In this document: piece by piece, positions 3,197-42,638 of the stretch
Layout: every line of letters begins with the position of its first letter
Numbering within the stretch: the stretch's first letter is position 1
Program-made: the position numbers and the translations under genes
Assembly (NCBI RefSeq): GCF_018863195.1
Contig: NZ_JAHKRT010000003.1
Span: 310,001 to 374,000, forward strand
DNA length: 64,000 nucleotides
DNA from: Sphingomonas quercus
GTDB lineage: Bacteria; Pseudomonadota; Alphaproteobacteria; Sphingomonadales; Sphingomonadaceae
Direction of reading: 5' to 3'
Notes under the pieces: generated by a model
Database searches by the model: none
Seen by the model: the letters and a program-made list of their open reading frames with translations, nothing else
Told to the model about the DNA's origin: nothing

Positions 3197-3454
3197 TCGT
3201 CTTCTGGGCCGGCTGCAGCCTGGCAGCTTCTGGGCGCCAGATCGCGCGAAGCGGACATTGGCGCTCGCTGGTCGAGCCGCTAAGACCCAATCTCGGCTGT
3301 TCGTGGCCTCTTTTCGCATCCTCAGCTTTGGCCGTTCGTTCACCTCGCCCGGGATCATCAGCCGGCCCGCACGCAATTGCGCTGGTATGAACGCGACACA
3401 TGCGGCTCAGGTGGCGGGATGGCGCTTCAGCACACTGGACCGACGCCATTCAGG

Positions 3455-4375
3455 TCAGCCAGCCCGTGAAAGAAGATATCGATCCTGAAGTGCCGCAAGT
3501 CTGGCCCTGAACTCCGGAGCCAGACCTGCCGCCAAGTTTGCGTAGGCGCGCGGGTTGCGGATCCATCTCCCGAGTTCGACTAGTCCGTCATCCAGGTCTG
3601 GAACGCAACCGACGAGACGGGCCGCGATCAACCGCTTCTCCAGATCCCGCAGCAGCAGGTAGGCTGACCCGCTTTCCGCAGGCCCCGGTGCCGAGAGGAC
3701 CGAAGCGGCGGGAACAACTGAACTGACCCGAGGGAAATGGCCGCGAGGCAGACCGGCCAGCGCGGATCGCACCTTCAGCCCGACCAAACCATGGCTGCCC
3801 GTCGCGTCACCGCGATACAGCGACTTCATGAACCGCAGCTGCCGCAGGTTCGCGACCGCTCCCCTGTCGAGGAAGCCCTCTTCTCGCAGAGCGTCGAGGA
3901 TGGCATCGTAAGCGAAGATGTAGCGACCGCGCTCCGCTAGCGAGAGGACGCCGAAGTTCCGCATTGTGACGTAAAGCACGTCCGCCGCCCACATCTCGGC
4001 GACCGGACCAGGGGGAATCCGAGCGATCAACCCAGCCAGTGCACCGTTGTCCGCGATCTCAGCCGAGTAGGACGACTTCGGCCGAAAAGACGCCAGCAGG
4101 CGGCCAAGACGTCCGTCACGATCCACCGAGACGTCGGCCTCCAGCCGCAGGTGCTGGACGAAGAGCGCCCCTACACGCGACAGATGCTCGAGCTTGCAGA
4201 ACGTGTAGGACGCGACCGAGAACCCCTCCGCCCGAAGAGCCGCCGACCTCTCGCGCAGGACTCGGACGTCATCGTCGACGATAAGGAAGTCGCGATCGCT
4301 CAGCGCGTCGGCATCGCCACGCGCAGACGAGCCGAATTCCGCCTCGGAGGCGGCAAAGGTCGAAGCCGACCTCAT
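3455..4375 (-). CDS. Nucleotidyltransferase-fold protein, 306 aa
   Basis: The N-terminus carries a polymerase-beta-type nucleotidyltransferase signature: G15-S16, then SDRDFLIV with probable metal ligands D27 and D29, and a possible third carboxylate in LRLEADV (E79 or D81). Such enzymes transfer nucleotides to proteins, antibiotics or other nucleotides. Residues about 100-300 are mostly helical and I do not recognise them. The start overlaps the stop of the upstream pentapeptide/channel gene by four bases (ATGA), so the two are translationally coupled. No signal peptide or membrane segment is seen. It could be a toxin-antitoxin-like, defence or signalling enzyme; the sequence does not decide. 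Confidence 0.7.
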   Translation of the reverse strand: MRSASTFAASEAEFGSSARGDADALSDRDFLIVDDDVRVLRERSAALRAEGFSVASYTFCKLEHLSRVGALFVQHLRLEADVSVDRDGRLGRLLASFRPKSSYSAEIADNGALAGLIARIPPGPVAEMWAADVLYVTMRNFGVLSLAERGRYIFAYDAILDALREEGFLDRGAVANLRQLRFMKSLYRGDATGSHGLVGLKVRSALAGLPRGHFPRVSSVVPAASVLSAPGPAESGSAYLLLRDLEKRLIAARLVGCVPDLDDGLVELGRWIRNPRAYANLAAGLAPEFRARLAALQDRYLLSRAG

Positions 4376-5271
4376 CGCAGGAACCTCTTCACGAGCACGG
4401 ATGTGAATATAGACAACCAGCCGATCGCCGCCAATGCCTCGAACACGGTCAGCATCTTGGCGAAGGGGCTGTCAGGGACGACAGTGGAGAATCCGAGAAC
4501 GGTCAGGACGGAAAATGAATAGAAGATGCTGTCCACAATCGAAGGGGTCGCCAGACGGGCGCCGTTCACCACGAGATCCGCACCGATCAAAAGGTGGTTC
4601 AGCAAAGAGATCGCTAGGAAGAAGAGGATTGTGAAGCCGAAGAGCCTCACCGGCTTGTAGCCGTAGCCAGCCAGCACGTCGTAGGTCAGACTCTTCAGTT
4701 TCGCCCATTCTCCCGGCATCCTGTCGACCTTCCCGCTGCGGATGTCCCAGTCAAGCTGATACCGCTTCCAGCGCCTGAACTGGATGTCCGCGTCCGCATA
4801 GAAGGCGTCCTGCCGCTCATTCGAGTAGTTGGAGAGTAGCGCCTGGTACATTGTAACGGGCACGTTCGCCGCTTCGACGCGATATCGCCGGTCGAGCCGT
4901 ATGGTGCGAGGATCGAGATAGCACTGTTCGAACTTGGCCTTCCACATGCTCGTATCGACGAACCTACACTTGTGGAACTCGACCTCGCGAAAGCGGCTGC
5001 CGTTGAACAGGCAGTCCTCGAAGGTGCATTCGGTGAAGGTGAGCTGGAACAGGTCCATGTTCTGGATCGACACGTTCCTGAACGTCACCTTCTTGATCTT
5101 CTTGCGCGGCTGATACCACTGCTCCCCCCGGAACAGGATGTTGGTCACCTCATCGCCCGGCGACATTGATGGCATCGCCTCCCCCTGCTGGTGCACTTTC
5201 GGCGTGCCATCCAGTCTGAAGAGGTTCGTCAGCATTGCGGCAGTTGAGCCGGAACCGCTGTCCGTGTCCAT
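4372..5271 (-). CDS. Pentapeptide-repeat protein with two-helix ion-channel domain
   Basis: A soluble N-terminal part contains degenerate pentapeptide repeats (residues about 61-120, with Phe/Leu every fifth position as in FTECTFEDCLFNGSRF). After a charged linker comes a two-helix pore module: TM1 about 207-231, a re-entrant loop 247-268 and TM2 about 272-295. The filter reads TVLGFSTVVP instead of the potassium-channel TVGYG, so ion selectivity is uncertain. The protein ends right after TM2. ATG 5271 has a weak ribosome site; ATG 5175 follows a GGGGGAGG and would remove 32 residues before the repeats. It is followed by a coupled nucleotidyltransferase gene. I infer a membrane effector or osmotic/ion-flux role. 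Confidence 0.7.
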   Translation of the reverse strand: MDTDSGSGSTAAMLTNLFRLDGTPKVHQQGEAMPSMSPGDEVTNILFRGEQWYQPRKKIKKVTFRNVSIQNMDLFQLTFTECTFEDCLFNGSRFREVEFHKCRFVDTSMWKAKFEQCYLDPRTIRLDRRYRVEAANVPVTMYQALLSNYSNERQDAFYADADIQFRRWKRYQLDWDIRSGKVDRMPGEWAKLKSLTYDVLAGYGYKPVRLFGFTILFFLAISLLNHLLIGADLVVNGARLATPSIVDSIFYSFSVLTVLGFSTVVPDSPFAKMLTVFEALAAIGWLSIFTSVLVKRFLR

Positions 5272-28418: not shown

Positions 28419-29528
28419 ATGGCCATACCGCAGCACGGCGATCCGGAGATACCCGTCGGCCTGGCCACGACGACGCAGGCCGGCGGCCGCTCAGTCCTGT
28501 CCTTCGACAGCCAGAAGCATCATTCCGTCGGCGTCCGTGCGCGCGCCTTCGTCTTTTCCGACGCGCGATCCCGCGCGTTGCTGCCGCTTATCGAGAAGAC
28601 GGCGCCGAGCGATGCCAACATACTCGTCGTCGGCGCGACGGGCACCGGCAAGGAACTGGTCGCGCGCTATGTCCACGCGCTCAGCCGGCGCGCGGGCGGG
28701 CCGTTCCTGGCGGTGAATTGCGGCAGCTTTTCCGAGACGCTGATCGAGGGCGAATTGTTCGGCTCCGAGAAGGGCGCCTATACCGGCGCCCATGCCGCGC
28801 GCGCCGGCTGGTTCGAGGCCGCCAATGGCGGCACGCTGTTCCTCGACGAGATTGGTGATCTGCCTTTGCCGCTGCAGGTCAAGCTGCTGCGCGTGTTGCA
28901 GGAGCGCGAGGTGGTGCGCCTCGGTTCGCGCACGCCGATCCCGCTCGACGTGCGGGTGATCGCGGCGACCAATGTCGATCTCCAGCAGGCGGTGGCGAAG
29001 GGCGGCTTCCGCGCCGATCTCTTCTACCGGCTGCAGGTGGTGACATTGCCGCTGCTGCCGCTCAGCGAGCGCCGCGCGGATATCCTGCCGCTGGCTCGCC
29101 ACTTCCTCCAGACCTATGGCGATGAGCTGCGCCCGCGCCGCCTCGATCTCAGCCACGCGGCCGAGGAAGCGCTCTACCGATATGGCTGGCCGGGCAATAT
29201 CCGCGAGCTTGAGAACGCCATCTACCGGGCCACCCTGGTCTGCCAGGACGGCGTGATCGAAGTCGGGGATCTCGGCCTGCCGACGGCGGATGCAGCGCCG
29301 CTTCCCGCCGACAGCCTGCCGCCTTCGGGCTCGCTCGAGGATATCGTCCGCCCGATGATCGCGCGGCTGCTCGACGGCGGCCATGAGGCGCTGCTCGACC
29401 GGCTGGTGAACGCGGTCGTCACCGAAGCCTATCAGCGCAACGGCGCCAACCAGATCCGCACCGCAGCAGCACTCGGCGTGACGCGCAACGTCGTGCGCAC
29501 CCACCTCAAGAATTTCGGGCTGATCTGA
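28419..29528 (+). CDS. SfnR-like sigma-54-dependent transcriptional activator
   Basis: 369-aa enhancer-binding protein. A short N-terminal region (about 1-45) without receiver or PAS domain precedes the AAA+ domain: Walker [10 protein letters not shown] (71-79), the sigma-54 contact loop GAYTGA (119-124), Walker [13 protein letters not shown] (137-148) and the arginine-finger region. A Fis-type helix-turn-helix ends the protein ([20 protein letters not shown]). The missing sensor domain is typical of SfnR, which is controlled by its own level under sulfur limitation. It is embedded among four sigma-54 promoters and is the obvious activator for them. Start ATG follows a GAGAGGAAAG site; an inverted repeat CCTAG/CTAGG lies at 28355-28371 upstream. 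Confidence 0.88.
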
Positions 29529-29567
29529 GCAAATCTGATCAGGTCGCCTGCTGATTATCGCACAGCC
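29518..29567 (+). promoter_or_regulatory. Tandem putative activator sites upstream of the desulfinase/monooxygenase operon
   Basis: GGCTGATCTGAGCAAATCT (29518-29536, overlapping the activator stop codon) and TGCTGATTATCGCACAGCC (29549-29567) start 31 bp apart. The proximal site ends 51 bp before the -24 element, exactly as at the TonB receptor promoter. Confidence 0.65.
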
Positions 29568-29617
29568 GGCGCCTCTCCGACCCGCTTCTCCCCGGGGAAA
29601 TCCGACGCCTCGCCGAT

Positions 29618-29632
29618 TGGCACGGCCTTTGC
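29618..29632 (+). promoter_or_regulatory. Sigma-54 promoter of the 29.7-37.6 kb operon
   Basis: TGGCACGGCCTTTGC matches the -24/-12 consensus perfectly and is followed by T. Predicted start near 29644, 24 bases before ATG 29668, leaving room for the ribosome site GGGAGAG. Confidence 0.88.
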
Positions 29633-29667
29633 TGTCTTTCCGGGACAGGATGTGAGGGAGAGACGGC

Positions 29668-30756
29668 ATGGCGATACCGACCAATGGCTTGCCCACCGAT
29701 TTGTGGTTTACGCGCTGCCCGGTGCCCACTGCGACCGGCATCGCCTACAAGCTCGACTGGCTGACCGAGGAATTCGCGGAAGACGGCATCGCCGTCCGCA
29801 CGCTCCAGGAATCCGGCTCGGAGCTTGGCCGCCATCATTATGATCATCGCCTGCCGACGCTGATCCGCGAAGGCGGCAACATGCTCGCCATCGCCGCCCG
29901 CGCGCAACGCGAGCCGACGAAGCTGATCGGCTTGACCTGGATCGAGGAAAGCCAGCTCATCCTCACCCGCCCCGATACGGGCATCCGCGCCGCCGCCGAC
30001 CTCAAGGGCCGCCGGCTGGCGCTGCCCGGCTGGTCGCACAACGACATCCCCAGCCATGTGCGCGGCACCAGCATCGCGCGCGGCATGTCGCTGGCCGGAT
30101 ACAAGGGCGCGCTCGCCTCGGCGGGCCTGACCCTCGACGATGTCACGCTGGTCGAGACGGAGGATCGGCTGCGCAATATCGGCGGCAGCGGCCGCGACCT
30201 CGAACCGCGCCGGTCCGGCGTCGGCCGGCTGTGGTCGATCCAGCCGCTCGTCGAGGGCTATGTCGATGCGATCTACGTCAAGGGTGCCTCCGCCCTCGAT
30301 CAGGCGCGCGAGGCCGGGCTGGTGGTGGCCGTCGATCTCGACGCGCTGCCCGACCGCCGCTTACGTGTGAACAACGGTACGCCGCGCCCGATCACCGTCC
30401 ATCAGTCGCTCATCGACGATCATTTCGATCTGCTGGTGCGCTTCCTGGCGGTGACACTGCGCGCGGCCGACTGGGTGGCGTCCTCGCCCGACCGGCTGCG
30501 CGACATCCTCGAATATGAGACGGCCGGCAGCACCGCGTCGGTCGACCAGGCCTATCGCCTGCTCCACGAAGGGCTGCACCCGACGCTCGACGAGGAGCGG
30601 CTCGTGCTGTTCGACCTGCAGAAGAAATTCCTCTTCACCCACGGCTTCCTCGACGCCGATTTCGCGCTGGCCGACTGGATCGACCCGCGCCCGCTCGAAG
30701 CCGCCCGCACGCTAGCGGCGCGCGGCTCCGCCCAACGCATCCCCGAACTCGCCTGA
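29668..30756 (+). CDS. DszB-like desulfinase paralogue 2, 362 aa
   Basis: First gene of the plus-strand sigma-54 operon. The DszB-type motif FTRCPVPTATG puts the candidate catalytic Cys at residue 17; HRLPTLIREGGN holds the His/Arg-GG active-site segment, and VNNGTPRPITVHQ matches paralogue 1. No signal peptide. The reaction inferred from the family is hydrolysis of a sulfinate to sulfite plus the desulfurised product. A 12-base gap separates it from the class II aldolase-like gene, so the two may act on one pathway. Confidence 0.75.
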   Translation: MAIPTNGLPTDLWFTRCPVPTATGIAYKLDWLTEEFAEDGIAVRTLQESGSELGRHHYDHRLPTLIREGGNMLAIAARAQREPTKLIGLTWIEESQLILTRPDTGIRAAADLKGRRLALPGWSHNDIPSHVRGTSIARGMSLAGYKGALASAGLTLDDVTLVETEDRLRNIGGSGRDLEPRRSGVGRLWSIQPLVEGYVDAIYVKGASALDQAREAGLVVAVDLDALPDRRLRVNNGTPRPITVHQSLIDDHFDLLVRFLAVTLRAADWVASSPDRLRDILEYETAGSTASVDQAYRLLHEGLHPTLDEERLVLFDLQKKFLFTHGFLDADFALADWIDPRPLEAARTLAARGSAQRIPELA

Positions 30757-30768
30757 AAGGAACCCTCC

Positions 30769-31515
30769 ATGTCCGATCGTGCCGGCCTTTCGCCCGAAGC
30801 CATCGCCTTCGTCGTCAAGACCGAGGATGAGGCGCGCCGCGCCTTCCGCGTGCTGCGCGAGACGCACACGCTGTCGCCCAGCGGCACCCTGTTCTTCGCG
30901 GTCCGCATCCCCAACGAGAACAAGATCATCACACTCAACTATCTCGGCCTGTGGGAGGACGATCCCGATCGGGCGCAGACGGCGGTGATCGATTTCGACG
31001 GCAACAGCTATTGGAGCAGCAAGCCGGGCGGCGCCGCGCGCTACCTGAAGCTGTTCAAGACCCATGACGGCGTGCAGGCGATCAGCCACATCCATACGCC
31101 CCATCTCGGCGCCTATTCCCAGGCCCATCGGGCGCTGCCGCTGCTCTACGTGCCGAACCGCCGCTTCCGCTTCAGCGCGGAGCTGCCGGTCTATATCAAC
31201 CGCCGGCAGGCGGAGGTCGACTTCATCCTCGATTCGATCGAGCGCGACCGCGAGGTGCCCGGCATCGTCGAGGCCAATGGCGGCGCCACGGTGTGGAGCT
31301 GGAAGGGCCTGCGCGATCTCGTCAACAACATCGTGCTGCTCGAGGAAGGCGCCCATTTCCAGATCCTCGGCGCGGCGCTGGGCGGCTCCAAGCCGTTCGG
31401 GCCGGGCGTGCTGGAACAGCAATGGAAGATGGGCAAGCTCGTCCCCGCCGACGCGCACGTCGATGACGATGGCACGATCCGCTACGCCTCGCCTGCCGCC
31501 GAGGCCGCGGAGTGA
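30769..31515 (+). CDS. Class II aldolase/adducin-domain protein
   Basis: 248 aa, start preceded by GAAAGGAA. Features of the class II aldolase/adducin fold are seen in the NENKIITLNYLGLWED region, the metal-binding histidines of AISHIHTPHLGAYSQAH (about residues 106-121) and a C-terminal helix with LEEGAHFQILGAALGG. Members act on aldehydes, phosphosugars or related hydroxy acids with a divalent metal. In this operon it may process the aldehyde left after C-S cleavage; that is inference. Its stop overlaps the start of the DszA-like gene. Confidence 0.75.
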   Translation: MSDRAGLSPEAIAFVVKTEDEARRAFRVLRETHTLSPSGTLFFAVRIPNENKIITLNYLGLWEDDPDRAQTAVIDFDGNSYWSSKPGGAARYLKLFKTHDGVQAISHIHTPHLGAYSQAHRALPLLYVPNRRFRFSAELPVYINRRQAEVDFILDSIERDREVPGIVEANGGATVWSWKGLRDLVNNIVLLEEGAHFQILGAALGGSKPFGPGVLEQQWKMGKLVPADAHVDDDGTIRYASPAAEAAE

Positions 31516-32888
31516 CCGGGGCGGCGAGCGCGAAGCGCCAGCTCGCCCTCGGCGTGTTCCTCACGCGCCACGGGCATCACCCAGGCGCGTGGCGGCAGCC
31601 GGGATCGGCGCGCAGCGGCCGGCCGGACTTCGCCTATTGGGCGGAGTTGGTGAAGACGGCCGAGCGCGGCAAGTTCGACGTCGCCTTCTTCGCCGATTTC
31701 GTCGGCCAGAATGGGGACAGCACCAAGGGCATCGAGCGCCGCCACGCCTTCCTCGATTTCGAACCGCTGACACTCACCGCAGCACTCGCCGCCGTCACCA
31801 GCCGGATCGGGCTGGTGGCGACGGTGAACACCAATTTCGACCAGCCCTATTCGCTCGCGCGTCGTTTCGCTTCGGTCGATCATATCAGCAAGGGGCGGAT
31901 CGGCTGGAACATCGTCTCCTCGCTGGCTGACGGGGCGGCGAAGAGCTTCGGCGTCGAGCAGCCGCTCAGCCACGCCGATCGCTATGAACGCGCTGCCGAG
32001 TTCGTCGATATCACGCGCCGGCTCTGGGACAGCTGGGAGGACGACGCCTTCGAGCATGCCGATCGCGACAGCGGCATCTATCTCGACGCGAACGACGTCC
32101 ACCCCGTCCACCATGACGGGCGCTACTTCCATCTCGACACAGTGCTCGACACGGCGCGCCCGGTGCAGGGCCATCCGGTGTTCGCGCAGGCCGGCAATTC
32201 CGAGGTCGGCCGCGATTTCGCCGCCAAATATGCCGAGATGATCTATGCCGCCGCGCAGTTCATCGGCGACGCGCAGCGCTTCTACGCAGACGTGAAGGGG
32301 CGCATGGCCAAATATGGCCGTGATCCGGATACGCTGAAGGTGATGCCCGGCCTGTCCTTCGCCATCGGCCAGAGCCGGCAGGAGGCGCAGGACAAGTTCG
32401 GCGCGCTGGAAGACGCCGTCGATTTCTCCGGCGAGCTCAATCTGATGGGGCAGGATGTCAGCGGCTATCCGCTCGACGGGCCGCTGCCCGACCTGCCCGA
32501 GCCGGAGAATGGCAAGGGCCGCTGGCGCCAGCTCACCGAACTTGCCCGGCGCGAGAACCTGACGATCCGCCAGCTCTTCCTGCGCTTCAATGCGGTGCGC
32601 GGGCATCGCGTGGTGATCGGCACGCCCAACGATGTCGCCGACCAAATTCAGGACTGGTTCGAGTGCGGCGCCGCCGACGGCTTCAACCTGATCCCGCCGC
32701 TGATGCCAAGCTCGCTCACCGAGTTCGTCGACCTGGTAGTGCCGGAGCTGCAGCGGCGCGGCCTGTTCCGCACCGACTATGAAGGCACGACGCTGCGCGA
32801 GCATCTGGGTCTCCCGCGCCCGCGCATCGGCGCCGCCGAGCCCGCGCCGGCGGTGGCCGAACCCCGCATCCTCGCACCCGTGTCCTGA
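31512..32888 (+). CDS. DszA/NtaA-family FMNH2-dependent monooxygenase
   Basis: 458 aa, GTG start overlapping the upstream stop (GTGA). The sequence follows the NtaA/SnaA/DszA family from end to end: HPGAWRQPGSA and AERGKFDVAFFADF near the N-terminus, SLARRFASVDHISKGRIGWN with IVSS (FMN-binding region), GRYFHLDTVLDTARPVQGHP, the C-terminal AADGFNLIPPLMPSSLTEFV and RTDYEGTTLREHLGLPRP. DszA oxidises dibenzothiophene sulfone to a sulfinate, the substrate of DszB. A DszA-like and DszB-like pair in one operon suggests an oxidise-then-desulfinate route for a sulfone or aromatic sulfur compound. Reduced flavin probably comes from the nitroreductase at 23016. Confidence 0.88.
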   Translation: MTGAASAKRQLALGVFLTRHGHHPGAWRQPGSARSGRPDFAYWAELVKTAERGKFDVAFFADFVGQNGDSTKGIERRHAFLDFEPLTLTAALAAVTSRIGLVATVNTNFDQPYSLARRFASVDHISKGRIGWNIVSSLADGAAKSFGVEQPLSHADRYERAAEFVDITRRLWDSWEDDAFEHADRDSGIYLDANDVHPVHHDGRYFHLDTVLDTARPVQGHPVFAQAGNSEVGRDFAAKYAEMIYAAAQFIGDAQRFYADVKGRMAKYGRDPDTLKVMPGLSFAIGQSRQEAQDKFGALEDAVDFSGELNLMGQDVSGYPLDGPLPDLPEPENGKGRWRQLTELARRENLTIRQLFLRFNAVRGHRVVIGTPNDVADQIQDWFECGAADGFNLIPPLMPSSLTEFVDLVVPELQRRGLFRTDYEGTTLREHLGLPRPRIGAAEPAPAVAEPRILAPVS

Positions 32889-32902
32889 GAAAGGGAAAGA
32901 TC

Positions 32903-33955
32903 ATGGCCAGTAAACTCGACACGCTCTGGTACACGCGCTGCCCGGTGCCGACCGGGCTCGGCATCGCCATCCAGCAGGGATGGCTGGAGAATGCCTTCCG
33001 GGCGCAGGGCACAAAGCTCTCCTCGTTGCTGGAATCCAATGATTTCGCTACGCGCGAATCCCATTTCAGCCATACCCTCCAGAACTCGGTGCGCCACGGC
33101 GGCAACATCCCGGCGATCAGCGCCAGGGCACGCGGCCGCGACACGCGGGTAATCGGCCTGTCCTGGGCGGACGAGACCCAGCTCATCCTCGCCCGTCCGG
33201 ATTCCGGCATCGAGACGGTCCGCGACCTGAAGGGCCGCCGCTTCGGCCTGCCGAACTGGAAGCATGTCGAGATCGACTTTACGCGGGCGCAGGCGATCCG
33301 CGGGCTGGAGAACGCACTCAGCCTCGAAGGGCTGACCGTGCCCGACGTCGAGATCGTCGATCAGGACATAGAGACCCACTATAGCGACGAGCGCGCCGAG
33401 AACGTCAACGGCACGCTGGCGCGGCGTGTCGGCAGCCGGGCGCGGGCCAATAACCAGGAGCTGATCGCGCTCATCCGCGGTGAGGTGGACGCGATCTTCC
33501 TCAAGGGCGCGCACGGCGCGCAGGCCGCCAACCAGTTCGGGCTTACCAAGGTGATCGACACCGGCGCCCATCCCGAGCCGCTGATCCGCGCCAACAACGG
33601 CACGCCGCGCACGCTGGCGGTGGACGGCCACCTGCTCGACAATCATTTCGACGCGGCGGTGACGATCCTCGACCAGGTGCTGCGCGCCGAGGCCTGGGCG
33701 CAGGATCATCCGTCGGACGTCCGCCGCTACCTCGCCCGCGAGACCAATTCGAGCGAATATTGGGTGTCCGTCGCCTATGGCGATGATGCCCAGACGCGGC
33801 TGAAGACGGATCTCGACGACCAGTCGATCACGGCCATCCAGGACTTCACCAACTTCCTGCATCGCTGGAACTTCATCCCCGAAAGCTTTGACGTGCGCGA
33901 CTGGATCGATCCGCGCCCGCTCGATGCGCTCCGGTCGGCGCGCATCGCCGTCTGA
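32903..33955 (+). CDS. DszB-like desulfinase paralogue 3, 350 aa
   Basis: Third paralogue, directly after the DszA-like gene with a GAAAGGGAAAG ribosome site. The motif YTRCPVPTGLG sets the candidate nucleophile at Cys13; SHFSHTLQNSVRHGGN contains the His and Arg-x-GG segment. It differs from the other two at the C-terminal half (TNSSEYWVSVAYG), suggesting another substrate. Adjacent to the DszA-like gene, it is the best partner for its product. Like the others, it has no signal peptide. Weakly it could be a binding protein without catalysis. Confidence 0.75.
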   Translation: MASKLDTLWYTRCPVPTGLGIAIQQGWLENAFRAQGTKLSSLLESNDFATRESHFSHTLQNSVRHGGNIPAISARARGRDTRVIGLSWADETQLILARPDSGIETVRDLKGRRFGLPNWKHVEIDFTRAQAIRGLENALSLEGLTVPDVEIVDQDIETHYSDERAENVNGTLARRVGSRARANNQELIALIRGEVDAIFLKGAHGAQAANQFGLTKVIDTGAHPEPLIRANNGTPRTLAVDGHLLDNHFDAAVTILDQVLRAEAWAQDHPSDVRRYLARETNSSEYWVSVAYGDDAQTRLKTDLDDQSITAIQDFTNFLHRWNFIPESFDVRDWIDPRPLDALRSARIAV

Positions 33956-33966
33956 TCCGCTTCGCC

Positions 33967-35775
33967 ATGCTGCTCGAAACCATCCGGCCGGCCGCATCTT
34001 CGGCCGGCTCGCCGCTGATGCGCTGCCTGGCGATCTACCGCCAGATGCCGAAGCGCTTTGCGCTGACGGCGATGATGCTGCTCGCCGTCAATCTGGCGCT
34101 GGTCGCGCAGCAGGGGCTGGTGGGGCGGGCGGTACGCGAGGCGCGGCTCGGCGATCTCGTCACGCGGGATGTGGCCGGCGGGCTGGATTATCGGCGGGCG
34201 TGGTTCTGGGTGGCGGTGCTGCTCGGCCTGTCGCTGGCGCGGGCCGTGGTCCAATATGGCGCCGGGCTGCTCTCGCTGTCGATCGGGCAGGAGCTGCTGA
34301 CGATCCTGCGCGCCCGCATCCTCGCCCAGATCCAGCAGCTGGACCTCACCTATCACTGGCGCCACGGCGTCGGCGAGATGGTGACGCGGATGACGCGCGA
34401 TGCCGACAAGGTGCGCGACGCGCTGATCAACTTCTGGCGCCAGATGTTCGAGACCGGGCTGATCGTGCTGGTCTCGGGCGCGATGCTGATCTGGTATTCG
34501 CCGTGGCTCGGCATCGTGCCGCTGGCGCTGGTGCTGGCCGGCATCGCGCTGCTTTCCGCCCAGGCCGGCGCACTGGTGCGGCTCGATCGCCGCATCGGCG
34601 CCGCCTATGACGCAGTGACGCAGGATCTGTCCGAAGGCGTGAATGGCGTCCGCGTCATCAAGGCATTCGGGCTCGGGCCCGCGCGCATCGCCCGTTTCGA
34701 CGCGCATATCGCCACCTTCCGGCAGGAAGCGCGCGCCGCCATCGTCCATGCCGCGCGGCGCGTGCCGCTGCCGCAGACGGTGATCGCGCTTGGCCATGTC
34801 TGGGTGCTGGGCTATGGCGCGTGGCTGGTGAGCCGAGGCACGATCGATCTCGGCGCCTTCGTCGCGGCGCTGCTCGTCATCAACACGATGGTGCTGAGGA
34901 TCGAGACGATCGGCCTGCTCCTCCAGATCATCGCTGATGCCCGCTCGTCGGCGAGGCGCATCTGGGAAGTGCTGGACGCCGAGCCTGGCATCGTCAGCGG
35001 CCATGCGGCGGTGCCCTTCGGCCCGCTCGGCGTGCGCCTCGAAGGCGTGTCGGTGGCTCCGCTCGAGGACGGTGCGGCCGTGCTGCGCGACCTCAGCTTC
35101 ACGATCCGGCCCGGTGAGATCGTGGCGCTGGTCGGCCCCACCGGGTCGGGCAAGAGCATCCTCACCGCCCTGCTGCCGCGCCTGCTCGATGCCGGCGCGG
35201 GCACGGTGCGCATCGGCTCCGACGAGGCCGGCTGGCGCGACGTGCGCGACCTCGATCTCGCCGCGCTGCGTCGTCGCGTCCACGTCCTGCCGCAGGAGAG
35301 CTTCCTGTTCTCCGACACGCTCGCCGCCAATCTCCGCCTCACCGCGCCCGATGCCGACGATGCCCGCCTCTACGAGGCATTGCTGCAGGCCGCCGCCGGC
35401 GAGCTGCTCGATCGCCTGCCCGATGGCCTCGCCACGCGCGTCGGCGATCGCGGCATCACGCTTTCCGGCGGACAGCGCCAGCGCATCTGCCTCGCCCGAG
35501 CGCTGCTCTCAGATGCCGACCTGCTGGTGCTGGACGATGCGACCAGCGCGCTCGACGCTGCCACCGAGAGGCTCGCCATCGCCAATATCCGCGGCCTGCG
35601 CGCAGGCGCGGCGCGGCCGGTGACGATGCTGATCGTGTCCAGCCGCCTGTCGACGATCCTCGCCGCCGACCGCGTGCTGATGCTCGCCGACGGCCATGTC
35701 GCGGCGAGCGGCACTCATGACGAGCTGGTCGCCACCAGCCCCGCCTATCGCGCGCTGATGGGGCTCCAGCCGTGA
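33967..35775 (+). CDS. ABC exporter half-transporter with degenerate ATPase site
   Basis: 602 aa: membrane domain with six predicted helices (about 30-320) and a C-terminal ATPase. Walker A GPTGSGKS and signature LSGGQ are normal, but the Walker B acid is Asp (LLVLDDATSALD instead of DEATS) and the switch His is replaced (IVSSRLSTI instead of SHRLS). This is typical for one subunit of a heterodimeric type IV exporter with a single competent site. The GTG start of its partner overlaps its stop. Gene follows desulfinase 3 by 11 bases, so it shares the sigma-54 operon and may export a desulfurised product or an inhibitor. Confidence 0.88.
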   Translation: MLLETIRPAASSAGSPLMRCLAIYRQMPKRFALTAMMLLAVNLALVAQQGLVGRAVREARLGDLVTRDVAGGLDYRRAWFWVAVLLGLSLARAVVQYGAGLLSLSIGQELLTILRARILAQIQQLDLTYHWRHGVGEMVTRMTRDADKVRDALINFWRQMFETGLIVLVSGAMLIWYSPWLGIVPLALVLAGIALLSAQAGALVRLDRRIGAAYDAVTQDLSEGVNGVRVIKAFGLGPARIARFDAHIATFRQEARAAIVHAARRVPLPQTVIALGHVWVLGYGAWLVSRGTIDLGAFVAALLVINTMVLRIETIGLLLQIIADARSSARRIWEVLDAEPGIVSGHAAVPFGPLGVRLEGVSVAPLEDGAAVLRDLSFTIRPGEIVALVGPTGSGKSILTALLPRLLDAGAGTVRIGSDEAGWRDVRDLDLAALRRRVHVLPQESFLFSDTLAANLRLTAPDADDARLYEALLQAAAGELLDRLPDGLATRVGDRGITLSGGQRQRICLARALLSDADLLVLDDATSALDAATERLAIANIRGLRAGAARPVTMLIVSSRLSTILAADRVLMLADGHVAASGTHDELVATSPAYRALMGLQP

Positions 35776-37571
35776 ACGCGCTCGCCGGCGATCGCCCGCT
35801 CTCCGAAATCGAGCTGGAGGAGAAATACGCGCAGAAGGATCTGGAACGCGGCATCGTCCATCGCCTGCTCCCGCTGCTCCGCCCGGTGCGCGGACGGGTG
35901 GCGGCGGTGATCAGCATCGAGCTGTTGCAGGTGCTGGCGATCTTCGCGCGACCGCTGCTGATCGGGCTGGTGATCGATCGCGGGCTCGGCCATGGCGCCG
36001 GCCCGGCCGACATGCGCCTGATCCTCTGGGCCTGCCTCGGCCTCGCGCTGAGCTGGGCCGCCCGGTTCGCTCTAGGCGGCCTGTCGCAATATTTCGCGGG
36101 CACGGCGGCGATCCGCGTGCTCAACGACCTGCGCTCGCGCGTCTTCGCCCATGTCCAGACGCTGAGCGTCAGCTATTTCGACCGCACCAAGGCCGGCCGC
36201 ATCATCTCGCGCGCGGATCGCGACGTCGACACGCTGGAGCCGCTGCTCATCCAGGGGCCCCCGCAATTCCTCTCGGCGATCTTGCGCCTGTTGATCTCCG
36301 CCGCCCTGCTGTGGATGATCGCGCCGGCTCTGCTCGTCGGGCTCGCCGGCGTGGTGCCAGTGCTGGCGATCGCCACCATGCTGTTCAAGCGCGTGGCGCA
36401 GCGCAGCTGGGCGAGGGTGGCGGAAAATCGCAGCCGCTTCACCGCCCATCTCGTCGAGACTGTGGCCGGCGTCCGTCTGATCAAGCAGGCCGGGCGCGAG
36501 CGGGAGAACCTTGCCAGCTATCAGGTGTTGCTCGACGATTTCAACACTGCGCTGGTCCGCGGCAGCATGCGCTCCGGCTGGTTCGCGCCCTTCACGGGGC
36601 TGCTCACCACGGTCGGGCTGGCGCTGATCCTGCTGGTCGGCGGGCGTGGCGTGGCGACGGGCGCGCTGACGCTCGGCGAGCTGACGCAGAGCCTGTTCTA
36701 CGTCTTCCTGTTCCTCGCCCCGCTGCAGGAATTCAGCGATCTGTTCGAGCGCTTCGCCAATGGCTCGGCCTGCGCCCAGCGCATCTTCCTGCTGCTCGAC
36801 ACCGACCCCGAGATCCGCGCCGCGCCCGACGCGCTCACTCTGCCCCGCATCCGGGGCGCGATCGAGTTCCGCGACGTGCGCTTCGGCTATCACCCGGACA
36901 AGCCGGTGATTCGCGGCCTCAACCTGTCGGTGGCCGCCGGCGAGGTGCTGGCGATCGTCGGCCCAACCGGCCACGGCAAGAGCACGCTCGTCCAGCTCCT
37001 CACCCGCTTCTACGATGTGTCGAGCGGCGCCGTGCGGCTCGACGGCCACGACATCCGCGATATCTCGGAGGCGAGCCTGCGCCGGCAGATCGGCGTGGTC
37101 CTGCAGGACAATGTCCTGTTCGGCGGCACCGTCCTCGACAATCTCCGCCTCGCCCGGCCGGAGGCGAGCGACGCCACCCTGATCGCCGCCGCCCGCGCGC
37201 TGGGTGCGGACGAGGTGCTGGAGGCGCTACCCCACGGCTATCACACGGATGTCGGCCCGCTCGGCAGCCAGCTCAGCCAGGGCCAGCGCCAGCTCGTCTG
37301 CCTGACGCGGGCCTATCTCGCCGACCCGACCGTGCTGGTGCTGGACGAGGCGACATCTGCCGTCGATGTCAGCACCGAACGCCGCATCCAGCAGGCGCTC
37401 CGCCGGCTGTGCGAGGGGCGCACCGCGCTGATAATCGCCCACCGCCTCGCGACTATTCGGGACGCCGATCGCATCGCCGTGGTCCGCGATGGCAATGTCG
37501 TCGAGCTGGGATCGCATCATCAGCTCATAGGACGCGGCGGCACCTATGCGTCGCTCTATCGCGCATATTAG
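35772..37571 (+). CDS. ABC exporter half-transporter with canonical ATPase site
   Basis: 599 aa, GTG start overlapping the upstream stop (GTGA). Six predicted membrane helices, then an ATPase with Walker A GPTGHGKST, signature LSQGQ (Gln for Gly), Walker B VLVLDEATSAVD with catalytic Glu, and switch His in IIAHRLATI. It completes the asymmetric pair with the preceding subunit. Last well-supported gene of the operon; composition drops sharply after its stop. Confidence 0.88.
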   Translation: MNALAGDRPLSEIELEEKYAQKDLERGIVHRLLPLLRPVRGRVAAVISIELLQVLAIFARPLLIGLVIDRGLGHGAGPADMRLILWACLGLALSWAARFALGGLSQYFAGTAAIRVLNDLRSRVFAHVQTLSVSYFDRTKAGRIISRADRDVDTLEPLLIQGPPQFLSAILRLLISAALLWMIAPALLVGLAGVVPVLAIATMLFKRVAQRSWARVAENRSRFTAHLVETVAGVRLIKQAGRERENLASYQVLLDDFNTALVRGSMRSGWFAPFTGLLTTVGLALILLVGGRGVATGALTLGELTQSLFYVFLFLAPLQEFSDLFERFANGSACAQRIFLLLDTDPEIRAAPDALTLPRIRGAIEFRDVRFGYHPDKPVIRGLNLSVAAGEVLAIVGPTGHGKSTLVQLLTRFYDVSSGAVRLDGHDIRDISEASLRRQIGVVLQDNVLFGGTVLDNLRLARPEASDATLIAAARALGADEVLEALPHGYHTDVGPLGSQLSQGQRQLVCLTRAYLADPTVLVLDEATSAVDVSTERRIQQALRRLCEGRTALIIAHRLATIRDADRIAVVRDGNVVELGSHHQLIGRGGTYASLYRAY

Positions 37572-39298: not shown

Positions 39299-39814
39299 TC
39301 AGCCCTCGCTCCGTTTGCGCAGCTGCTCGACCTGATCGGCTAGCGTCGCCACCTGCCGGGACAGGTTGGCGATGGTCTCGATCACGCTCTCGAAGCGCGG
39401 ATCTGGCCCCGGCGGGAATCGGTCTCCCGGGTCGAACACACCGTCCGCCTCGATCTTCTCGAGCTTCAGCTCCTTGATCTCGTGCTTCTCATGCTTCTCG
39501 ATCTTCTCGAGCTTTTCCGGCTTCTCCACCTTCTCGTGCTTTTCGAGTTTCTCTGGTTTTTCAGGTTTCTCGACCTTCTCGATCTTCAATTCCTTGATGA
39601 AGTCCTTGGCGACCTCGGGGAACGGCTTGTCGAAGAAATCTTTGATTGAGGTCTTGCCGGCTTCGAATGGCGATTTGCCGCCGACCTGCCCGAGGATAGC
39701 CGCGAGGTCGCGGACCCTGAGTTCGGTGACGGGCATGTCCAGGTCCAGCCTCACTTCCGGCCGATCCGCCGCTCCTATGAACGGCTCCTTGTTTCCCTCG
39801 CTCTCATTGGCCAT
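39299..39814 (-). CDS. Lys/Glu-repeat protein encoded with two ATP-grasp genes
   Basis: 171 aa, no signal peptide. Residues 1-70 look folded (RPEVRLDLDMPVTELRVRDL, then a helical DFFDKPFPEVAKDFIKEL). Residues about 74-122 are a tandem array of short units of the form EK-x-EKPEK with occasional His, bounded by near-identical IKELKIEK and IKELKLEK. The C-terminal 35 residues form a probable coiled coil (ETIANLSRQVATLADQVEQL). It starts 11 bases after the second ATP-grasp gene, so it belongs to that operon. Abundant paired Lys and Glu make it a candidate substrate for ATP-grasp ligation (side-chain amides), but an elongated structural role is equally possible. Confidence 0.7.
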   Translation of the reverse strand: MANESEGNKEPFIGAADRPEVRLDLDMPVTELRVRDLAAILGQVGGKSPFEAGKTSIKDFFDKPFPEVAKDFIKELKIEKVEKPEKPEKLEKHEKVEKPEKLEKIEKHEKHEIKELKLEKIEADGVFDPGDRFPPGPDPRFESVIETIANLSRQVATLADQVEQLRKRSEG

Positions 39815-39825
39815 GTTTGCCTCCT

Positions 39826-40797
39826 CTAGGGTCGACGCGGATGCGATGGTCTCGGCGGCGAGGGCACCCTCTCCGCAGCGCCGGTGCGGAGCAGCTCCGC
39901 CAAAGCGAATGAAATCGGCTGCCCGGTATTGCGCTCATAATAGAGAAATCCCGGACACGGATTGACCTCGAAACAATACCAATCACCGTTCGGCGTCTCC
40001 CGGAGGTCGATGCCGGAGTGCAATAGGCCGAGGTCGCGCGACACGCGCAGGCAGGCTTCGGCTACGGCCGGCGGCAGCTCGGCGGGCTCCATCTCCACTG
40101 ACGCCCCCTCGCGCCCGGCATAGCGGTAGTCCGTCGCCTCGGAGCGGACGCGCGTCGCGAACAGCTGGTCGCCGACGACATGCACCCGCACGTCGCAGCC
40201 GCGGATCAGCGCCTGGAACTGCGCCGGCCCGTTGCGCAGCAAAGCGAGCCGAGGGAGATGGTCTGGCTCCAGCCGCCGCACGATGGAGCGGATGCCGCTC
40301 GTCGACTTGTAGATCAGCGCGCCATGCTCGGCCCGGAACGCCTCGACTGCCTCCGGATCATTGGTGACCAGCGTCGGCGGGACGAGAAGCCCGGCGCGGG
40401 CGATGAGTAGCAGCTGATGAGGCTTGCTGTTGTTCGACATGCCGCCGCCCATGCGGTTGACCACCGCGCACGGCAGGTCGTCGAGCACGAGCATCAGCGC
40501 CGCGTCTGCCTCCTGCTGCAGCTCGCAGGCCTGTGGCTCGGGCAAGCCTGCAGGAAGCTGGCGCCCTTCCGGACCCAGGAACCGGACATAGGCGCCGCTG
40601 ACCTCCTCGATCCCCATTTGCCAGTCCTGTCCCGACAGATGCCCGCTGCGGCGACCGTCCGCCCAGTTCATGGTCAAGCCATATCCCGCCGGATAGCGCC
40701 CGAGGTCCAAGAGCCGATAGGGATAGCCGCAGTCGTCGAGCCGGGCGCAGACCAGCTCGGCCACTTTGTCCGCGATGCCGCCCGCGACGAGAATCAT
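39826..40797 (-). CDS. ATP-grasp protein, RimK/graspetide-ligase-like
   Basis: 323 aa. The N-terminal third is a pre-ATP-grasp domain (MILVAGGIADKVAELVCARL). The ATP-grasp part shows a nucleotide-binding Lys in ALIYKSTSGIRSIVRRL, the R-V-H-V strand (GCDVRVHVVGDQLFATRV) and the metal-binding end LHSGIDLRETPNGDWYCFEV with NP following, so the Glu and Asn ligands are intact. Layout and size match the MvdC/MvdD-type peptide ligases and RimK relatives, which join carboxylates to amines or hydroxyls with ATP. Its start overlaps the stop of the other ATP-grasp gene by four bases. The likely acceptor is the Lys/Glu-repeat protein; this is inference. Confidence 0.78.
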   Translation of the reverse strand: MILVAGGIADKVAELVCARLDDCGYPYRLLDLGRYPAGYGLTMNWADGRRSGHLSGQDWQMGIEEVSGAYVRFLGPEGRQLPAGLPEPQACELQQEADAALMLVLDDLPCAVVNRMGGGMSNNSKPHQLLLIARAGLLVPPTLVTNDPEAVEAFRAEHGALIYKSTSGIRSIVRRLEPDHLPRLALLRNGPAQFQALIRGCDVRVHVVGDQLFATRVRSEATDYRYAGREGASVEMEPAELPPAVAEACLRVSRDLGLLHSGIDLRETPNGDWYCFEVNPCPGFLYYERNTGQPISFALAELLRTGAAERVPSPPRPSHPRRP

Positions 40798-41684
40798 GGC
40801 AGCGCCTCCCTCGCCATCCCCGACGCGCGGCCCGTGAGAAGGTCGACCAGCGCCTCGATGATCTCGTCCTGGTTTGTAGCGTCGAAATGCTCGAGCCAGG
40901 GCAGCGGATCGACATGGATCACCGCCGGGCCTTCCGGCAGCCGGCCGAGCGCGATCTCGACGAAGGCAAGCTCCGCTAAGTGGGCGAAGTGCATCAGCCG
41001 GCCCGACAAGGCGCGCTCCGCAACCGAAGCCTGGCCGCCCCAGACGATCCGCTCACCGACGATGCACAACACGGTCACCGGCCCGTGCGGCTCAGCGAGG
41101 CAAACCGGGGCATGCGCCTGGAGTGCTGCGACGCCATCCCAGTCACCGGCGCCAACGAGCCAAGCCTGATTGCGCCTCAGCGACTTGAAGATCGCCCCCG
41201 GAGTGTCGCTGGTGTCGAGCCGCCGGCGGAACGCCGCGACGGCCTCGGTGCTGTCGGTTACGACGGTTTCCGGGGTCGGCAAGCCCGAGCCTCGAAGGAG
41301 CGGCATCCAATGCAGCAACATCGTCCGTGGTCGGTACCAGGTTTCGGCGTCGAGGCGGTTGATCACCGGGCAATCAAGAGCCGACAGCCACCCTAGCACG
41401 GCTGCCTCGGTCTCCGCCTGCATGTAGCTATGGTCGACCGTGCTCCAGCCGGCGGGATCGAGCGCAGCGCGCGCGCGGACGAGCACGCTCTCGACCGGTT
41501 CCTCAGGACCATCGCCGATTGCCAGCGAGCTCGACGAGGTCCCATCCGATGCGATGCGCAGCGAATAGCGTGTCGGCGCCCGGAACAGCGCCTCCGTCAG
41601 CTGCGCCGCACGGCCCTCTGCGGCCAGCCTCTTCATGACGCCGCGGCAACAGGAGTCGTGCGAATGTCCGAGCACCAGATGCAT
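40794..41684 (-). CDS. Second ATP-grasp-like protein, metal site apparently altered
   Basis: 296 aa, first gene of the operon, ATG 41684 with a weak ribosome site. The arrangement parallels its neighbour: an N-terminal domain (MHLVLGHSHDSCCRGVMKRL), a region INRLDAETWYRPRTMLLHWM, a candidate ATP-binding Lys in GAIFKSLRRNQAWLVGAG, and a C-terminal strand where the usual ExN metal ligands would lie. That strand reads VIHVDPLPWLEHF, with Asp for Asn and no Glu, so catalysis may be lost or use another metal geometry. It could be a partner, a pseudoenzyme or a second ligase. Confidence 0.68.
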   Translation of the reverse strand: MHLVLGHSHDSCCRGVMKRLAAEGRAAQLTEALFRAPTRYSLRIASDGTSSSSLAIGDGPEEPVESVLVRARAALDPAGWSTVDHSYMQAETEAAVLGWLSALDCPVINRLDAETWYRPRTMLLHWMPLLRGSGLPTPETVVTDSTEAVAAFRRRLDTSDTPGAIFKSLRRNQAWLVGAGDWDGVAALQAHAPVCLAEPHGPVTVLCIVGERIVWGGQASVAERALSGRLMHFAHLAELAFVEIALGRLPEGPAVIHVDPLPWLEHFDATNQDEIIEALVDLLTGRASGMAREALP

Positions 41685-42223: not shown

Positions 42224-42331
42224 CCTGCCACTCGGCACCAGATCGCCGATCCTCACCTTCACGACGTCACATCCACGTAGGTTGCTGTTGATCGCCAGAT
42301 CCAACAACGCCCGGTCGCGCAGCCGCCGGTG
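42224..42331 (-). pseudogene. Fragment of a tyrosine recombinase (integrase)
   Basis: About 36 codons, [20 protein letters not shown] continuing as [11 protein letters not shown], match the start of the catalytic domain of phage-type integrases, including the region around the first catalytic Arg (KLRGCDLV-type segment). Both ends lose similarity. It borders an IS21 remnant on the opposite strand. Confidence 0.65.
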
Positions 42332-42341
42332 CCTCGAGCCT

Positions 42342-42638
42342 GTGAACCGGCTCGAGGAAGGGGCCCGGATCGGCAAGGCGGGGACCCTGGCGGCCCAGCT
42401 CACCCGGCTCGCCGTGGTCGTGCTCGATGAGCTTGGTTACCTGCCGTTCGCCCGCTCCGGCGGCCAACTGCTGTTCCACCTCGTAAGCAAGCTCGACGAG
42501 CGCACCTCGGTGACCATCACCACCAACCTGACGTTCGGCGATCCCAAGATGACCACCGCCATGCTCGACGGGCTCACCCACCACTGCGACATCATCGAGA
42601 CCGGCACCGACAGCTTGCGCCTCAAGCATCGCAGCTGA
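42342..42638 (+). pseudogene. istB: Remnant of IS21 helper ATPase (istB)
   Basis: The C-terminal part of an IstB-type AAA+ ATPase: Walker B region [20 protein letters not shown], then [19 protein letters not shown] and the end [19 protein letters not shown]. The N-terminal half with Walker A is missing, and about ten residues seem deleted between TTNLTFG and DPKMTT relative to the usual protein. No istA or inverted repeats were recognised nearby, so the insertion sequence is dead. Confidence 0.8.

Follow-up and report, generated by a model that had tools for sequence, protein, structure and literature searches.

In plesiocin, a short repeated peptide bears Thr-Glu esters, which are installed by a single synthetase; to our knowledge, it has no Lys array. 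Its synthetase PsnB (PDB 7drm) is the closest solved synthetase to the profile of the G2 family described below. In the microviridin pathway two ATP-grasp enzymes, MdnC/MdnB (PDB 5ig9, 5ig8), share the fold of our G1 and G2 and the leader holds a helical motif, PFFARFL, but both enzymes are active and the precursor is a short one whose core is fixed, whereas G1 is degenerate.

Corallotide (graspetide group 15) is made on CorA, a precursor of about 22 kDa that holds five isopeptides of KxxxD type, of which the Lys9-Asp13 isopeptide is proven, and the rosaritide synthetase depends on a partner protein (PMC13097080). Groups 34 and 35 have long precursors with repeating linkage residues, and group 34 also includes unassigned proteins (PMC13097080). 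For ATP-grasp branches 7 and 8 no precursor was predictable, and peptidases of several unrelated families were recorded (Makarova et al., 2022, PMC8939145). Loci of branch 8 also encode a truncated, inactive ATP-grasp (PMC8939145).

The locus analyzed here lies in a 64,000-nucleotide stretch of Sphingomonas quercus DNA, referred to as the window. An earlier note on this DNA described three minus-strand genes that overlap or nearly touch, and the ORF coordinates agree: G1 and G2 share 4 bp (ATGA), and KE starts 11 bp past the G2 stop, a layout of translational coupling or near contact. The genes are as follows.

40794..41684, minus strand: G1, ORF of 296 aa, degenerate MvdD-type ATP-grasp partner, predicted catalytically inactive
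39826..40797, minus strand: G2, ORF of 323 aa, graspetide-synthetase-like ATP-grasp ligase, predicted active
39820..39825, minus strand: ribosome-binding site of KE, AGGAGG, read from the sequence, consensus, 5 bp ahead of the ATG
39299..39814, minus strand: KE, ORF of 171 aa, Lys/Glu-array protein, candidate substrate

Sequence comparison assigns G2 to the graspetide-synthetase-type ATP-grasps; its catalytic residues are retained, and it is predicted to be active. TIGR04187 was matched at E=4.5e-47 (160.8 bits, under the model's curated 350-bit cut-off), followed by MvdD and MvdC, ahead of the RimK families, so that an ATP-grasp of the MvdC/MvdD/TIGR04187 family, one mark of a graspetide locus, is present. 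When a profile of 65 relatives was compared with the PDB, PsnB came first (7drm, 8.9e-47), and CdnC, PruB, MdnC and MdnB were also matched. The catalytic Mg/ATP residues K164, R204, D264, E277 and N279 were invariant across the 65 family sequences. The relatives next closest to G2 are the RimK families, and a RimK-like G2 would add amino acids (e.g., Glu) to carboxylates of the array, where many Glu side chains are on offer, or of the C-terminus, with KE as the scaffold of a polyglutamyl-type tail. However, RimK was not the best match of G2 (rimK_fam, E=2e-16), and in the profile comparison the peptide macrocyclases matched far better (RimK 1.8e-15, against the PsnB value above).

For G1, a Pfam search gave no match. 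An AlphaFold2 model (pLDDT 84) was searched with Foldseek, and the top matches were the graspetide synthetases MdnC, CdnC, PruB and PsnB (TM about 0.7). In a profile alignment to G2, D264 is replaced by Ala, E277 by His, N279 by Asp and R204 by Val. From the alignment and the model, G1 is predicted to have the fold of G2 with the catalytic Asp, Glu and Asn lost; given these replacements, it is predicted to be an inactive partner and not a second ligase. Most G1 relatives lack the middle part and are 230-250 aa long. The two ATP-grasp proteins of the earlier note thus have a common fold, but only G2 looks active.

The closest G2 relatives were found by an alignment-based scan in Paracoccus subflavus and Elioraea rosea (70-71% identity), where G1, G2 and KE stand in the same order; the trio loci of the three genera have no neighbor in common beyond these genes. 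On this comparative evidence, the trio is genuine and moves as one unit. Immediately upstream of it in the window, an IS21 IstB ATPase fragment (42282-42638, plus strand) is consistent with horizontal arrival. A cluster at 28419-37571 (plus strand), convergent with the trio, includes a sigma-54 activator, two NMT1-like binding proteins, a class II aldolase, a luciferase-like monooxygenase and two half ABC transporters, and probably has no relation to it. Within the order, class and phylum, searches that started from a single G1 or KE sequence returned next to nothing, as the sequences are too divergent or of low complexity. The trio would have seemed unique from these searches, a reading that the alignment-based G2 scan overturned, and the co-occurrence in other genomes that the earlier note had asked for was found.

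KE is made up of the following parts.

39752..39781, minus strand: candidate recognition motif FIGAADRPEV, KE residues 12-21, a match to F[IV]x4RPx[LV]
39683..39730, minus strand: conserved segment VTELRVRDLAAILGQV, KE residues 29-44, predicted helix
39443..39595, minus strand: Lys/Glu array, KE residues 74-124, read from the sequence, mainly E-K-x units
39308..39397, minus strand: C-terminal coiled-coil-like helix, KE residues 140-169, from the AlphaFold2 model

The AlphaFold2 model of KE, for which three sequences were the input, had a mean pLDDT of 56. Helix 140-169 was the sole confidently predicted part (pLDDT 80-90 over most of it) and is kept in the Paracoccus and Elioraea orthologues (loci L033 and L034), which agrees with the coiled coil described previously. 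The folded N-terminal part described alongside it was not recovered, apart from helix 29-44: AlphaFold2 confidence was low there. Confidence was low for helix 29-44 as well, and its VTELRVRDLAAILGQV segment is near-invariant in the three species. Weak matches of KE to MbeD and ribosomal L23 were set aside as coiled-coil or low-complexity noise.

The Lys/Glu repeat of about 50 residues reported earlier is real and is matched position by position in the orthologues. Among the three KE genes, 99/99 residue pairs at K/E/D positions of the array were identical, while their codons held 38 synonymous differences and identity at the spacer positions was just 35%. Identity of K/E/D despite 38 silent changes, with variable spacers, shows that purifying selection acts on the Lys and Glu residues themselves. 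Whole-gene dN/dS was about 0.09-0.11 (window, Paracoccus, Elioraea).

Two graspetide traits are missing from KE. The precursor is not short, with 171 aa in KE and up to 900 aa in relatives, and there is no conserved GG-type cleavage site, the GG at KE residues 45-46 not being kept in L033 or L034. The fit to graspetides is lowered by both, though not decisively, as a GG motif is found in only about half of graspetide precursors (PMC8939145).

To cover the wider family, three aligned G2 sequences were used to scan named species genomes, which gave 80 G2 relatives. These, together with the window, locus G289 and a Candidatus Megaera plasmid, make up a set of 83 loci, and the G2 family is spread over about 13 phyla. 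G1, as orthologue or homologue, adjoins G2 in 79/83 loci. A Lys/acid array was called where 30 residues held at least 7 Lys and at least 7 acids in an ORF up to 3.5 kb upstream or up to 1 kb downstream of G2; by this definition arrays were found in 70/83 loci, against 0/419 distant background ORFs. An adjacent candidate substrate gene with donor (Lys/Ser/Thr) and acceptor (Asp/Glu) residues, a further mark of graspetide loci, is present in these 70 loci in the form of the array. Background ORFs for both array and motif counts were mechanical ORFs out of the same loci. In an independent set of 289 genomes, a search with the C-terminal module gave one clear match, which adjoins G1 and G2; the others appear to be partial matches to coiled coils. 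When plasmids were searched, G1 had no match, and G2 matched mostly ordinary TgmB-type loci.

In a quick tree the G2 sequences formed one clade, and SH-aLRT support for its separation from the ordinary graspetide synthetases found in related bacteria was 99%. Several loci whose precursors differ served as an outgroup. Ordinary alphaproteobacterial graspetide loci (L023, L024, L025, L028 and L032), some of them in the window's family, have precursors with repeated TxTxxxxExDDQD units and a conserved membrane-like protein downstream.

The array usually sits on the C-terminal side of proteins with a variable N-terminal cargo domain. Among 67 such proteins the domain was an M6 peptidase in 19, S8 in 15, Nal1-type in 9, kelch in 4, C13 in 3 and DUF6519 in 1, and in Fibrella the peptidase cargo, array, motif and G1 are fused into one ORF. 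Extensin matches of array-protein relatives were discarded as low-complexity noise. Cargo class changed at least 17 times on the G2 tree, in which inner branches are partly unresolved and some entries classed as small end at contig ends, while array and motif persisted. For branches 7 and 8, cutting of other cellular proteins by the locus peptidases was proposed (PMC8939145); here, the peptidases would process such proteins into peptides for G2, with the array protein as an accessory. A peptidase domain is indeed found in most relatives, M6 and S8 foremost, but the array protein is without one in the window and in the Paracoccus, Elioraea, Methylocapsa, Sphingopyxis and Acetobacteraceae loci. 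Elsewhere kelch or DUF6519 is the cargo, and the common part is array and motif, not proteolysis, which leaves this explanation highly improbable.

The motif F[IV]x4RPx[LV] was found in ORFs near G2 in 71/83 loci, against 4/3537 background ORFs, and in the form F[IV]x4RPx[LVI] in 65/68 array proteins. In most relatives it is C-terminal, past the array and coiled coil, while in the window, Paracoccus and Elioraea proteins it is at the N-terminus. A C-terminally placed graspetide leader remains functional (PMC13003496). KE has PFIGA, a loose fit to the graspetide leader motif Phhx(1,2)h, from which the conserved F[IV]x4RPx[LV] differs. Arrays without the exact motif are present in L064, L103 and L108. 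In L064 and L103 (bacterium CPR1; bacterium SZAS-1), EKGPxEK-type arrays end in PSDRFF and not in FIx4RPDL, and this ending is a candidate alternative recognition tail.

Composition of the arrays bears on the chemistry. Lys made up 28% of array residues and Arg 3.6%, so that K:R was 7.9 in arrays against 0.49 in the remainder of the same proteins. Counts of Lys and of Asp plus Glu per array were about 1:1 (r=0.98, acid/K 1.03+-0.14). Together, these values point to a requirement for the Lys amine, beyond positive charge alone, and the 1:1 ratio favors cross-linking over amino-acid addition. The RimK-like reading leaves the strict need for Lys, all of which are conserved, and the 1:1 ratio unexplained, and we hold it to be quite unlikely. 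Ser and Thr together were only 3.4% of array residues, and this scarcity counts against ester links. Lys-Lys adjacency was avoided and spacings of 3, 4 and 6 were favored; Lys-to-acid spacings of 1 and 4 were dominant overall, with 2, 5 and 8 favored in the small proteins. As the Lys/acid spacing varies by family (KEx vs. EKx), no one ring size would hold for all. A charge-balance test (Lys=acid vs. Lys+Arg=acid) gave p=0.001, 0.016 and 0.35 under three array-end settings and was not relied on, since the outcome shifts with the array boundary definition.

Alternating K/E sequences can form salt-bridged helices. The array might be no substrate but a charged spacer or single alpha-helix, with G2 and G1 acting elsewhere, e.g., on the motif region, on the coiled coil, on the cargo or on a different protein; loci L035, L036 and L113, which have no array, would be in keeping with this. 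However, Arg is avoided, though it is freely used in salt-bridged helices, the E-K-P units of the window array are poor for a helix and none was predicted in the array region by AlphaFold2, and the array tracks G2 over about 13 phyla while the cargo changes. We therefore regard this reading as unlikely. Lys-acid isopeptides fit best: Arg would be acceptable in a salt-bridged spacer, and Ser/Thr would be required in an ester core.

Several loci depart from the common layout. In L035 and L036 (Verrucomicrobia) the ATP-grasp pair is present and array and motif are absent; their G2 is a sister branch to the window G2. A 241-aa neighbor without an array (4536-5261 in both) may be another substrate type, and homology of KE to the upstream gene of these loci was not supported (E 0.13 to 0.18). 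L113, a 3.1-kb contig, has a peptidase with the motif and without an array, and L059, L072 and L104 have weak arrays only. In L098, a frame at 3265-4305 resembles the reverse complement of a Lys/acid repeat, which suggests an opposite-strand array gene just after G2. Candidatus Megaera plasmid pPCS109 (L031, 3405-6905) encodes, one after another, two very small Lys-rich peptides, both ATP-grasps and two oxygenases. The 41-aa Lys-rich peptide directly before G2 bears FISFDLRPDL and a 53-aa Lys/Asp peptide adjoins it; the 2OG/isopenicillin-N-synthase-like oxygenases come after and, with the Lys-rich peptides, are reminiscent of the hydroxylated isopeptide of corallotide. A small gene of about 90-110 aa (consensus near MVQIVENWAEI) was found with its own profile in 22 loci, the window not among them, and follows G2 in L040, L041, L043, L047, L049, L051, L053, L090, L091, L093 and L097, among others; it is a possible fourth component.

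Compared with the described systems, the loci resemble branch 8 in a graspetide-type ATP-grasp beside a truncated, inactive one (G1 being shortened in most loci), and in the unrelated peptidases M6, S8, Nal1/trypsin-like and C13 of the relatives, none of which is in the window. They differ in that the peptidases, or stand-alone proteins such as KE, themselves bear the Lys/acid array and motif. We infer, by matching descriptions, that these loci are branch 8 of PMC8939145, and the array protein is most likely the precursor that the survey did not find. The candidate new system of the earlier note would be new in its proposed array substrate; its enzymes belong to a known graspetide-synthetase-like family. 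Overlap with groups 34 and 35 of PMC13097080, known to us by description, is possible. Corallotide shares a TIGR04187-type synthetase, a large precursor and repeated Lys-Asp isopeptides, and needs for partner proteins are described in the same paper (PMC13097080). Its differences are five spaced motifs, a 2OG oxygenase, restriction to Corallococcus and no ATP-grasp twin described, whereas the arrays here are dense, often peptidase-fused and spread over about 13 phyla. A large repeated substrate, which the earlier note took for a different kind, has a precedent in CorA at about 22 kDa (PMC13097080). In the literature covered (main texts, mainly of open-access papers), no report was found of peptidases as array carriers or of array proteins that have no peptidase, as in the window and five other loci.

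We consider it probable that the locus is a protein-scale graspetide-type system in which G2, guided by the motif and with G1 as partner, makes Lys-Asp/Glu isopeptides on the array; the array as ATP-grasp substrate, first suggested from this DNA alone, is strongly supported by comparative genomics through the co-occurrence of array, motif and G1. G2 would bind the short motif F[IV]x4RPx[LV] on the substrate, use ATP to phosphorylate Asp/Glu side chains in the array and link these to Lys side chains by isopeptide (omega-amide) bonds. G1, the twin predicted to be dead, would be an obligatory partner that helps to bind the substrate or to stabilize the complex. The array would serve as core, with the helix and motif beside it as leader or follower; in most bacteria this core would be a tail on a peptidase or other cargo, and in the window a stand-alone protein. 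The product may consist of small lactam rings in a chain, or of inter-chain cross-links held by the coiled coil, and could act as a stiff, protease-resistant stalk. A general tail-stiffening machine, in which an active/inactive ATP-grasp pair turns dense Lys/acid arrays on swappable cargo, mostly peptidases, into ladders of isopeptide rings or covalent inter-chain bundles through one short portable motif at either end, is a more tentative proposal, to which we give slightly less than an even chance.

A likely precursor can now be named for the two graspetide-synthetase branches left without one by the 2022 survey, and the signature is simple: a Lys/acid array and F[IV]x4RPx[LV] adjoining an active/inactive ATP-grasp pair. 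At 171 aa, the stand-alone KE would make a convenient minimal substrate, and chosen proteins could be stapled by means of the portable motif. If the proposal is true, graspetide chemistry would reach beyond small peptides to the tails of large proteins in more than 12 phyla.
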